Shown piece after piece: positions 50,229-52,443 of a DNA stretch of 64,000 nucleotides. The notes under the pieces are model-generated. The model saw nothing but the letters and a program-made list of their open reading frames with translations, ran no database searches and was not told where the DNA came from. A program made the position numbers and the translations under genes. Every line of letters begins with the position of its first letter. Position 1 is the stretch's first letter. This DNA is from Parasphingopyxis marina. GTDB taxonomy: Bacteria; Pseudomonadota; Alphaproteobacteria; Sphingomonadales; Sphingomonadaceae. The DNA lies in assembly GCF_014237875.1 (NCBI RefSeq), contig NZ_JACJVJ010000001.1, positions 1,042,501 to 1,106,500 of the forward strand. Direction: 5' to 3'.

Positions 50229-50462
50229 CTATTTTTTCACAAAGACGATTTCCTCGGTCACCACGCTCTTGCCGGTTCCCGTGATGTTCGAACCTGTGGT
50301 GTGGCCCGAACTCAAAAACTCGTCGGCCGTGCCGTTCGCGCCACCGCCACTTACCTTGCTCGGCCAGGCATTCTCAAGGTTCCACTGCTTCACTTCGCCG
50401 CCAGTCACCTGATCGAGCTCCTTTTCGCCGAGCTCTTTGGCTTTCTTGTTTTTGGCCATCAT
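50229..50462 (-). CDS. Double-glycine leader peptide 3 (core resembles gp19/tail-tube C-terminus)
   Basis: Leader KAKELGEKELDQVTGG; core EVKQWNLENAWPSKVSGGG...ADEFLSSGHTTGSNI...VVTEEIVFVKK. Confidence 0.78.
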   Translation of the reverse strand: MMAKNKKAKELGEKELDQVTGGEVKQWNLENAWPSKVSGGGANGTADEFLSSGHTTGSNITGTGKSVVTEEIVFVKK

Positions 50463-50560
50463 CTGTCTTTCTCACCTGGCCCGGGGCGGGATGCCTCGGG
50501 ATCGGGCTCTGCCGCCCGAATGGGACGGAAATCCGCCGCATACCGGACGGTATCGGCTCG

Positions 50561-50800
50561 CTATTTGCGGATCTTCGTGCCCTTGGTCGCTCGCACGCCA
50601 AGCCTGTCGGTGGCGCGGATGCCGGCCCGGATTCCGACCTCGTCGGTGGTCAGTCGCGGCTTCACGCCCTCGATCTCGACCTTGAAGTTGTAGGCGCCGA
50701 ACAATTCTTCGGTGCCGCCGCCCTGTACTGAGTCCAGGTCTTTTTCCTCGAGCTCGACGGTGCCGGCCTTGGTCACTTTGTCGTCGGTTTTCTTGGTCAT
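50561..50800 (-). CDS. Double-glycine leader peptide 4 (core resembles gp19/tail-tube N-terminus, Arg-rich)
   Basis: Leader KVTKAGTVELEEKDLDSVQGG; core GTEELFGAYNFKVEIEGVKPRLTTDEVGIRAGIRATDRLGVRATKGTKIRK. Confidence 0.78.
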   Translation of the reverse strand: MTKKTDDKVTKAGTVELEEKDLDSVQGGGTEELFGAYNFKVEIEGVKPRLTTDEVGIRAGIRATDRLGVRATKGTKIRK

Positions 50801-50837
50801 CGTGATTCTCCGTGAAGTTGGGGTTTGGTCCGAAGCC

Positions 50838-51014
50838 TTAATTCGTCTGATCGTCTGGGCTGGCGAACGTCTTGAGCTGGGTGTTGGTTTTCACCGTGGG
50901 GGTCGTAGATCGGGCCGCCTCTCGCGCCGCCTGTACGGCCGGCAGGAGAAGGGCGCCGCCCTTTACCTGATCGAGCTCCTGCTCACTTAATTCCTCTTTC
51001 TTCTGTTTCGCCAT
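50838..51014 (-). CDS. Double-glycine leader peptide 5 (58 aa; absent from supplied ORF track)
   Basis: Manual translation [58 protein letters not shown]. Confidence 0.78.
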   Translation of the reverse strand: [58 protein letters not shown]

Positions 51015-51113
51015 GATAAAATTCCTTCCCCGATTCGTTGTCCTGTGAAGCGGTATCGGTGAAAACCCGGGGCGCCGCTGTGATCGCGATCACGCGCTCG
51101 GGCTTTGCTGCCC

Positions 51114-51359
51114 TCAGTTCTTCTTACGCGCGCCACCTTTGCTCTGCTGGACATGGGTCAGCTCGTGCCCGTCCAGCGTAACCGCTTGATCGCTGCCATC
51201 CTGTTGCGGAAGGGGTGACGGGATGAAGGGCATCGGCGGACCGGGGATCTTCACCACTTCGCTAGCACCTGCCGAAACCTGATTGAGCGCGTTTTCGTCG
51301 AGCTCGACCGCGCCGGCCTTGGTCACCCGATCCTGCTTACCCTGCTTCATTTTCGTCAT
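51114..51359 (-). CDS. Double-glycine-type leader peptide 6 (AG variant; core with HELTHVQQ)
   Basis: Start MTKMKQGKQ; leader RVTKAGAVELDENALNQVSAG; core ASEVVKIPGPPMPFIPSPLPQQDGSDQAVTLDGHELTHVQQSKGGARKKN. Confidence 0.72.
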   Translation of the reverse strand: MTKMKQGKQDRVTKAGAVELDENALNQVSAGASEVVKIPGPPMPFIPSPLPQQDGSDQAVTLDGHELTHVQQSKGGARKKN

Positions 51360-51422
51360 GTCCGGCTTCCTTCCGCAAACAGGGCGGCTCCTTCGCACCG
51401 GGCAAAGGGGCCGCCGATTGCC

Positions 51423-51584
51423 TTATTCGTCCTCGAAAACGCGCTCCATCTGCTTGGGCTCGGGCTTCTGGATGCCGCCGCGCAAGATGCCGAGGTCATC
51501 GCCCAGAAGGCCCTTGGTGCCCGCGCCCTGAACCTCGTCGAGATCCTTCTCGTTCAGCTCTTCGGTCCTTTTTTTCTCCGTCAT
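51423..51584 (-). CDS. Double-glycine-type leader peptide 7 (GA variant)
   Basis: AGGGAG RBS then MTEKKRTEELNEKDLDEVQGA; core GTKGLLGDDLGILRGGIQKPEPKQMERVFEDE. Confidence 0.7.
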   Translation of the reverse strand: MTEKKRTEELNEKDLDEVQGAGTKGLLGDDLGILRGGIQKPEPKQMERVFEDE

Positions 51585-51689
51585 CTTCATTCTCCCTTGA
51601 TGGTGAAACACAGTGCGAACCGATCAGGGGCCGCCCGGAACGTTTCCGGGGCAGGCCGTAATTTTCGTGTGCCGTCTTTTGCGAGCCGC

Positions 51690-51899
51690 TTATTCGGCTT
51701 TGACGTTGTTGGTGCCGTGGCCCGAACTCAAAATATTCGATCCCGTCGTGTGGCCCGAACTCAGGAAACCGTCCGCCGTGCGAACCGAGCCATCGCCGGA
51801 TTTCGTGGCTGCCGGCTTCTGGATTTCCATGTTCCCGCCGCCCTGCACGTCATCGAGTTCGGCATCCTTCAGTTCTTCGGTCTTTTTCTTGTCCGTCAT
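51690..51899 (-). CDS. Double-glycine leader peptide 8 (SSGHTTGSN repeat)
   Basis: Leader MTDKKKTEELKDAELDDVQGG; core GNMEIQKPAATKSGDGSVRTADGFLSSGHTTGSNILSSGHGTNNVKAE. Confidence 0.77.
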   Translation of the reverse strand: MTDKKKTEELKDAELDDVQGGGNMEIQKPAATKSGDGSVRTADGFLSSGHTTGSNILSSGHGTNNVKAE

Positions 51900-51947
51900 T
51901 GTCTTTCTCCTGCCTATGGTTGGCGTGGCGCGGATTTCGCTTGCCGT

Positions 51948-52142
51948 TTAATATTTCACTTCTTCGGTAGGCCGATCGTCCGCATCGCCCGAAGTGCTCC
52001 AGCCCTTTCTGCCCGCCGGGCCGAAATCGCCGTCGACGACGAGAGTTTTTGTGGTCTGGATGTCGCCTGTGGTTTTGAGGCCGCCTTGGACGTCCTCCAG
52101 TTCGGCGTCGTTGAGTTCTTCGGCTTTGGTCTTGTCAGTCAT
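51948..52142 (-). CDS. Double-glycine leader peptide 9
   Basis: Start MTDKTKAEELNDAELEDVQGG; core LKTTGDIQTTKTLVVDGDFGPAGRKGWSTSGDADDRPTEEVKY. Confidence 0.77.
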   Translation of the reverse strand: MTDKTKAEELNDAELEDVQGGLKTTGDIQTTKTLVVDGDFGPAGRKGWSTSGDADDRPTEEVKY

Positions 52143-52209
52143 GGTCAGTCTCCTGTTGGTGTTCAGTGTGCTTCGTCTCTTGTGTCCGGTTTTCGTGCTT
52201 TCGCCCGGC

Positions 52210-52443
52210 CTAAATGCCGCTGCCGCCGCCCGATGCGGCGGTCTTGCCGGCGGTTTTCGGCCCGACAATTCCATCGACGTCGAGATTCTTCTCGGTTTCG
52301 CCGATGAAACGGGCGCTGCCGCTCGTATGCTTGATTTTTTCGAAGTTGAGCGAGAAGCTCTCGACCGGCACGGAGTCTCCGCCGCCCTGGACGTCGTCCA
52401 GTTCGGTTTCGCTAAGCTGTTCCGTTTTGTGTTCTTTTCCCAT
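52210..52443 (-). CDS. Double-glycine leader peptide 10 (Hcp-like plus PG-binding-like segments)
   Basis: Leader MGKEHKTEQLSETELDDVQGG; core GDSVPVESFSLNFEKIKHTSGSARFIGETEKNLDVDGIVGPKTAGKTAASGGGSGI. Confidence 0.78.
   Translation of the reverse strand: MGKEHKTEQLSETELDDVQGGGDSVPVESFSLNFEKIKHTSGSARFIGETEKNLDVDGIVGPKTAGKTAASGGGSGI

Follow-up and report, generated by a model that had tools for sequence, protein, structure and literature searches.

Export-tagged small peptides of Parasphingopyxis marina with cores resembling segments of foreign protein families, possibly mimics of contractile injection systems and pilin-like fibres

The 64 kb stretch of host genome analyzed here, referred to as the window (its coordinates are used for all features unless stated otherwise), encodes by our reading part of a co-regulated, exported multi-peptide system with mosaic cores of foreign families that are possible mimics, and to this reading as a whole we assign a probability of about 0.5. 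The leader type, the exporter type, the upstream site, the family similarity and the preservation of reading frame are established from the sequence; cleavage and export are predicted, as is modification by a methyltransferase, a PAD-like enzyme or a radical-SAM protein encoded next to peptide n094a. Eight small genes (50229-52443) and two others (41925-42409), all on the minus strand, flank an export operon, and all ten peptide open reading frames were confirmed at the following coordinates, each leader ending in a double-glycine-type site:

Peptide 1, 41925-42146, minus strand: member of a methyltransferase-linked family with relatives in genomes G954/G975
Peptide 2, 42182-42409, minus strand: core residues 3-15 (42272-42310), YLKIGDIKGESLE, like the Hcp N-terminus; methyltransferase-linked family
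Peptide 3, 50229-50459, minus strand: 21-residue leader and core; core residues 2-26 (50319-50393) correspond to the gp19 C-terminal VKQWNLENAWPSKV
Peptide 4, 50561-50800, minus strand: core residues 8-20 (50657-50695) like the gp19 N-terminal strand, weak when taken alone
Peptide 5, 50838-51014, minus strand: core residues 1-15 (50910-50954) equal to 15/15 residues of a Singulisphaera DUF1559 protein
Peptide 6, 51114-51362, minus strand: LDGHELTHVQQSKGG (51132-51203) like eCIS_core (DUF4157)
Peptide 7, 51423-51584, minus strand: core without family match; IQKP in common with peptide 8
Peptide 8, 51690-51899, minus strand: repeated SSGH module in common with peptide 3
Peptide 9, 51948-52142, minus strand: core residues 28-42 (51954-51998), STSGDADDRPTEEVK, corresponding to the Hcp loop preceding the last strand
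Peptide 10, 52210-52443, minus strand: core residues 4-29 (52294-52371) corresponding to the Hcp C-terminal strand

Several of these cores have further features. Peptides 3 and 8 have the module FLSSGHTTGSNI in common, as peptides 7 and 8 have IQKP, in cores that otherwise differ. The GDGSVR of peptide 8 resembles the DUF1559 C-terminus without reaching significance, and positions 52249-52311 of peptide 10 resemble a peptidoglycan-binding motif (VDGIVGPKTAG; PF09374, E=0.021-0.037). Additionally, a SGGGSGI or QGGGSGI tail is common to peptide 10 and two tandem peptides of genome G783 (L137:8197-8592). A separate leader-peptide family (..QKVN..; L143, L144, L146 and L147 in G954 and G975) is related to peptide 1 and adjoins a methyltransferase in the window and in G272.

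The export operon encodes a PAD-like protein, a HlyD adaptor, a C39 peptidase-ABC protein, a second ABC subunit and a cyclic-nucleotide-binding protein. Beyond peptides 2 and 1 lies the methyltransferase gene, and at the opposite side of the locus a TolC-type channel is encoded:

Methyltransferase with regulatory domain, 40526-41920, minus strand: PF13649 and PF10119; 46% identity to a protein of L008
Cyclic-nucleotide-binding protein of the bacteriocin transport type, 42557-43084, minus strand: PF00027; TIGR03896 partial
Second ABC subunit (NHLM ABC2), 43088-45583, minus strand: full-length match to TIGR03797, 683.1 bits, just below the cut-off of 709.4
C39 peptidase-permease-ATPase exporter (NHLM ABC1), 45584-47719, minus strand: TIGR03796, 917.4 bits, above the cut-off of 853.3; PF03412
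HlyD-type adaptor (NHLM HlyD), 47716-48990, minus strand: TIGR03794, 248 bits, above the cut-off of 156.2
Putative guanidine-modifying enzyme (PAD-like, possibly a peptidyl-Arg deiminase), 49062-50156, minus strand: PF04371 as sole match, E=0.23
TolC/NodT-type outer-membrane channel adjoining the peptide array, 52514-54025, minus strand: TIGR01845, 298 bits

By sequence, the exporter is of the NHLP/NHLM type, with two of three profile cut-offs passed. The order PAD-HlyD-ABC1-ABC2-cNMP recurs in the Hyphomicrobiales contig L013 at identities of 64, 60, 76, 61 and 72%, the first of these covering 95 residues of the PAD-like protein and its counterpart upstream of HlyD. The assignment of the PAD-like protein to its class draws on the weak PF04371 match and on motif reading and is accordingly putative; phmmer found no relatives in the PDB, and a model by AlphaFold without alignment had a pLDDT of 34. 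Nearly devoid of profile matches and kept with the exporter in L013, this protein is possibly a new peptide-arginine-modifying enzyme. The methyltransferase adjoins peptides 1 and 2 here and the leader peptide in G272. The TolC gene is followed by genes for a sulfatase (54049-55461) and a TonB-dependent receptor (55555-58629), all three sharing one strand.

The exporter components (TIGR03796, TIGR03794, the near-threshold TIGR03797 and the TIGR03896-like protein), the many precursors and the modification enzymes close by resemble the NHLP/Nif11 (NHLM) clusters (Haft et al., 2010, PMC2887384). In contrast to those clusters, the leaders here are short and KT-rich with the pattern ELxxxELDxVQGG, no NHLP or Nif11 leader domain was found in the ten peptides among NCBIfam matches at E<=10, and the cores are snippets of foreign families. 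Comparison of 27 leaders from several genomes revealed Leu-7 in 27/27, Val-4 in 24/27 and Leu-12 in 24/27 (Ile in the other three), with the predicted cut after Gly-Gly or Gly-Ala and a single leader lacking Gly at -2. These residues are the determinants established for the C39 protease LahT150 (PMC6363468), and the leaders thus fit substrates of C39/PCAT proteases of the double-glycine type, with cleavage and export being predicted. With a leader profile of 22 positions, 18 peptides were detected in the host genome, ten in the window and eight outside, so that the genome appears to encode at least 18 export-tagged small peptides. Recent duplication of the leaders was considered and is unsupported, since the last 36 leader bases share on average 23/36 identical bases and 5/12 third positions.

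Upstream of nine of the 17 peptides examined, at a distance of 66-79 bp, a palindrome GTGA-N6-TCAC (at least 7/8 bases) is present, and these nine are exactly those whose genes come first in a transcription unit according to gene order. Among random 90-mers of the window, 1% had a site at that offset. Perfect matches occur only twice in the whole window, before peptides 5 and 10; these and the site of peptide 2 are as follows:

CRP-like site GTGATCGCGATCAC, 51080-51093, minus strand: perfect match, 79 bp before peptide 5
CRP-like site GTGATGCCAATCAC, 52504-52517, minus strand: perfect match, 74 bp before peptide 10
CRP-like site GTGATCCGCGACAC, 42470-42483, minus strand: 7/8 bases, 74 bp before peptide 2

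The motif, which we take to resemble the CRP consensus, constitutes a candidate site known from sequence. Due to this common upstream site, the dispersed peptides very probably form one system, and the assignment of leader, exporter and regulon taken jointly is held with high confidence.

The earlier note had read five of the ten cores as snippets of contractile-tail tube proteins, namely those of peptides 3 and 4 as gp19 and those of peptides 2, 9 and 10 as Hcp. This was analyzed with independent profiles built from 17 gp19 and 20 Hcp proteins encoded in other genomes. Each core was shuffled 3,000 times, and 2,000 fresh shuffles were scored in a repeat; a second control consisted of 1,542 fragments of 48 residues from real proteins encoded in the window, of which the best reached 3.6 bits for Hcp and 5.9 bits for gp19. 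The five cores first named proved to be those that score, the resemblance to Hcp and gp19 taken together going far beyond both kinds of control. The strongest case is core 3, which reached 15.8 bits against the gp19 profile (0/30,000 shuffles, best shuffle 6.5), and its likeness to the gp19 C-terminus is borne out by concurring sub-threshold matches in Pfam (PF06841, E=0.0072, 16.6 bits versus a cut-off of 28.2, model positions 93-119 of 134), in NCBIfam (TIGR02241, E=0.019) and in the PDB, where phmmer with all ten cores returned two chains only, both of tail tubes and both for core 3 (8bl4, E=0.19; 9r9h, E=0.34). Likewise, the resemblance of core 10 to the Hcp C-terminal strand was upheld at 9.6 bits, with none of its own 3,000 shuffles and none in the repeat reaching this score. 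Core 2 gave 8.0 bits against the Hcp profile (0/3,000 shuffles; p=0.0015 in the repeat), but the match is ambiguous because relatives within the methyltransferase-linked family that it forms with core 1 are without the Hcp-like part, as is the G272 counterpart next to the methyltransferase. Core 9 (Hcp, 3.7 bits, p=0.001-0.0055, exceeding all 1,542 real fragments) and core 4 (gp19, 3.0 bits, p=0.003-0.006) score above nearly all of their shuffles but are weak one by one. Lower-ranking similarities were seen for core 1 with the Hcp profile (p=0.006-0.0095) and for core 2 with the gp19 profile (p=0.008). As to the profile comparison that the earlier note had suggested, core 3 provided the sub-threshold PF06841 match, whereas no Pfam match to Hcp (PF05638) was obtained among the ten peptides, their Hcp similarity being local and confined to the purpose-built profile; equally frequent matches of shuffled cores, which that note had named as counter-evidence, were not seen in the per-core shuffle controls.

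Outside the window, the peptides n090a (p=0.004) and n090b (p=0.0027) gave additional Hcp similarity. On the Hcp profile, core 2 covers positions 17-29, n090a 112-130, core 9 123-137 and core 10 131-156, and different peptides may thus hold neighbouring pieces of one Hcp fold. If the matches were taken singly and corrected for all Pfam families, only that of core 3 would survive; the case rests on the joint pattern and on independent cores outside the window. The similarity to eCIS and T6SS components (gp19, Hcp, PAAR and DUF4157, with gp19, PAAR and DUF4157 among the eCIS core domains; Geller et al., 2021, PMC8213781) is at the segment level, and the host differs in that its export leaders precede only short pieces (12-50 residues) and in that no gp19 or Hcp gene was found. 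The tube theme of the earlier note is real with regard to Hcp and gp19 but too narrow, as other families contribute as well.

These other families became apparent from the further peptides to which the leader profile led, eight elsewhere in the host genome and others in related alphaproteobacteria. The 36-residue core of n092 matched DUF1559 (PF07596) at E=3.5e-8 and 34.2 bits, above the cut-off of 23.3, over positions 1-25 of 268, and n092 is a DUF1559 fragment and not a member protein. Its tblastn matches in plasmids were all planctomycete DUF1559 genes, while searches of plasmids with other single cores gave almost nothing; compared with a Planctomyces DUF1559 gene, 40/48 and 31/36 bases agree. 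Smith-Waterman comparisons with three DUF1559 proteins of planctomycetes set apart six cores, from three genomes, as DUF1559-like by shuffle z-score (n092 20, peptide 5 9.9, L145 7.0, L096 6.7, L126 4.4 and n093 3.4), the remaining 24 cores having z<=2.3. For peptide 5, 0/500 shuffles reached the score of its 15/15 identical residues. Peptide 5 and n092 agree in 15/16 core residues, whereas only 5/16 third positions of the codons match and identity between the two leaders is about one half, which indicates an amino acid motif that was either held at the protein level or acquired twice. Both are akin to the pilin-like DUF1559 proteins of Planctomycetes in these segments, but the host peptides are without a prepilin signal and, with cores of 36-52 residues, lack nearly all of the protein.

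Moreover, Tox-PAAR-like matches were found for n094b (2.4e-5) and for peptide L129 of G800 (6.8e-4), and eCIS_core (PF13699) matches in three genomes for L125 (E=3.6e-4), L124 (E=0.0023) and peptide 6 (E=0.0087 for the full peptide, 0.0049 for the best core). The PAAR-like leader peptide n094b has a GTG start and lies near, and on the opposite strand to, the radical-SAM protein (L094:3375-4520 on host genome contig 1; CNLRCRYC motif, Cys-rich C-terminus), which is directly downstream of n094a. FG-GAP matches were obtained for n090a (0.015) and L124 (0.23). The idea of a target specific to planctomycetes fits DUF1559 but fails for FG-GAP, the consensus of which matched Gloeothece, Mycobacterium and Methylocella and singles out no likely target. 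Most family matches lie below the curated cut-offs, with n092 alone above; roughly one core in three gave no match at all, and a PHROGs search gave nothing below E=0.13. We nevertheless consider with good confidence that the cores are mosaics of foreign-family segments.

The reading frame of the segments is preserved: in-frame translation gave six Pfam matches at E<=0.1 in 20 cores, and the other five frames of the same core DNA gave one weak match in 74 translations. The earlier note had proposed derivation from tube genes, which the host genome does not bear out for its own genes, as no gp19 or Hcp match lies above threshold there. Searches of the host genome for full-length gp19, Hcp and DUF1559 genes found none; peptide 3 was the sole gp19 match, a peptide core itself the sole DUF1559 match, and no functional eCIS or T6SS tube gene (gp19 or Hcp) was found beyond peptide 3. 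Duplication within the own genome was consequently rejected as the snippet source for these three families. Nor was DUF1559 found in five further genomes that encode peptides with such leaders. G005 and G019, of the same family as the host, each have two gp19 tube genes close to one another, so that near relatives of the host may carry eCIS or phage-tail loci.

Peptides with DUF1559, eCIS_core, FG-GAP or PAAR-like pieces occur also in G272 and G975 (same family) and in G783 and G800 (via the Hyphomicrobiales locus); the PAAR-like peptide of G800 comes immediately after an NHLP exporter with 54% identity to that of the host. The genomes are a sample and not exhaustive. Among 301 genomes sampled across the order, leaders of this kind were present only in the host genome and G272, so that the system is rare and patchy. 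A class-wide leader search in 385 genomes gave, besides the host, only matches that read as other leader types or long frames, apart from one short peptide (L098) in G350 that was assigned to neither. A scan of genome contigs with the exporter yielded five loci, most on short contigs and none with a short-leader peptide; the genome of one of them (L014) has four such peptides elsewhere. Open-access literature searches found no paper on this pattern.

How these cores arose and what they do can be explained in several ways. That short cores always resemble something and patterns were read into noise by selective recall would be in line with the weakness, one by one, of cores 4 and 9, n090a, n090b and n093, and with the naming of families post hoc from sequence; it is contradicted by the shuffle and real-protein controls, by replication in cores outside the initial set, and by core 3, n092 with its E-value of 3.5e-8, n094b and the three eCIS_core peptides, and we regard it as hardly credible. 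Decay of leaders once fused to exported full-length Hcp, gp19, PAAR-like or DUF1559 proteins, which then shrank, would account for L126 and L145 keeping N- and C-terminal DUF1559 pieces in order and for L129 retaining much of a PAAR-like domain. However, no fusion of a leader to a full-length domain was seen, the separate leaders of peptides 3 and 4 precede different gp19 ends, and the regulon and conserved motifs speak against decay, making it improbable.

A more serious contender is an open repertoire resembling that of the prochlorosins, in which the exporter takes any core and captured fragments of horizontally acquired genes are kept for general properties (antimicrobial, signalling or metal binding), the likeness being a fossil of origin. 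In keeping with this explanation, a single exporter serves numerous precursors that are scattered in the genome and differ widely in their cores; it also fits the diverse P' residues accepted by C39 proteases (PMC6363468), the swapping of modules between cores as in peptides 3 and 8, and the variation of methyltransferase-linked cores by genome; DUF1559, at high copy in planctomycetes (74 genes in R. baltica, PMC2754498), is a likely donor, and the base-level agreement of n092 with the Planctomyces gene points the same way. Prochlorosins and other multi-substrate systems (PMC10783134) share the dispersed precursors, conserved leaders and very diverse cores, but the host differs by the missing Nif11 leader, by cores that resemble named families and by a CRP-like regulon. 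Random capture, furthermore, should also have left pieces that are out of frame or antisense, and pieces of common housekeeping families. Neither kind was seen, and the same few families recur across several species; we consider this explanation possible, though doubtful. Two mechanisms stand from the sequence data, assembly-interfering mimics, among which the poisoning of tubes suggested by the earlier note would count, and an open repertoire recruiting foreign fragments as scaffolds. Mimicry is favoured over scaffold recruitment on account of frame preservation, the narrow set of recurring families and motif conservation; since it is deduced from sequence and the targets Hcp and gp19 assemble inside other cells, molecular mimicry as the function remains tentative, its chance being well short of even.

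Following this, we propose that around 18 double-glycine precursors (ten in the window, eight elsewhere) would be made under a CRP-like regulator, cut after Gly-Gly and exported by the NHLP-type C39 exporter with its HlyD and TolC-like partners, some of them possibly after modification by the neighbouring methyltransferase, PAD-like enzyme or radical-SAM protein. Their cores would keep, in the correct frame, conserved segments of families foreign to the host, from injection tubes (Hcp, gp19), the tip (PAAR-like), eCIS_core, planctomycete-type DUF1559 pilin-like proteins and FG-GAP repeats, and the released peptides would bind the partners of the copied segments and interfere with, or act as decoys for, self-assembling surface machines of neighbours. 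A peptide arsenal of this kind, in which co-regulated mimic sets of alphaproteobacteria jam or decoy contractile injection systems and pilin-like fibres, is conceivable but speculative. Highly diverse cores are a known feature of exported peptide repertoires, their purpose and origin being an open question in the field; here, many cores are legible as pieces of named proteins and suggest direct targets (Hcp, gp19, PAAR-like, DUF4157 and DUF1559). If interference with assembly is true, the peptides would form a novel class of weapons or defences directed at contractile injection systems, and would offer inhibitor leads; if the fragments are only recruited scaffolds, they would show the birth of peptide genes from foreign gene fragments with the frame kept.
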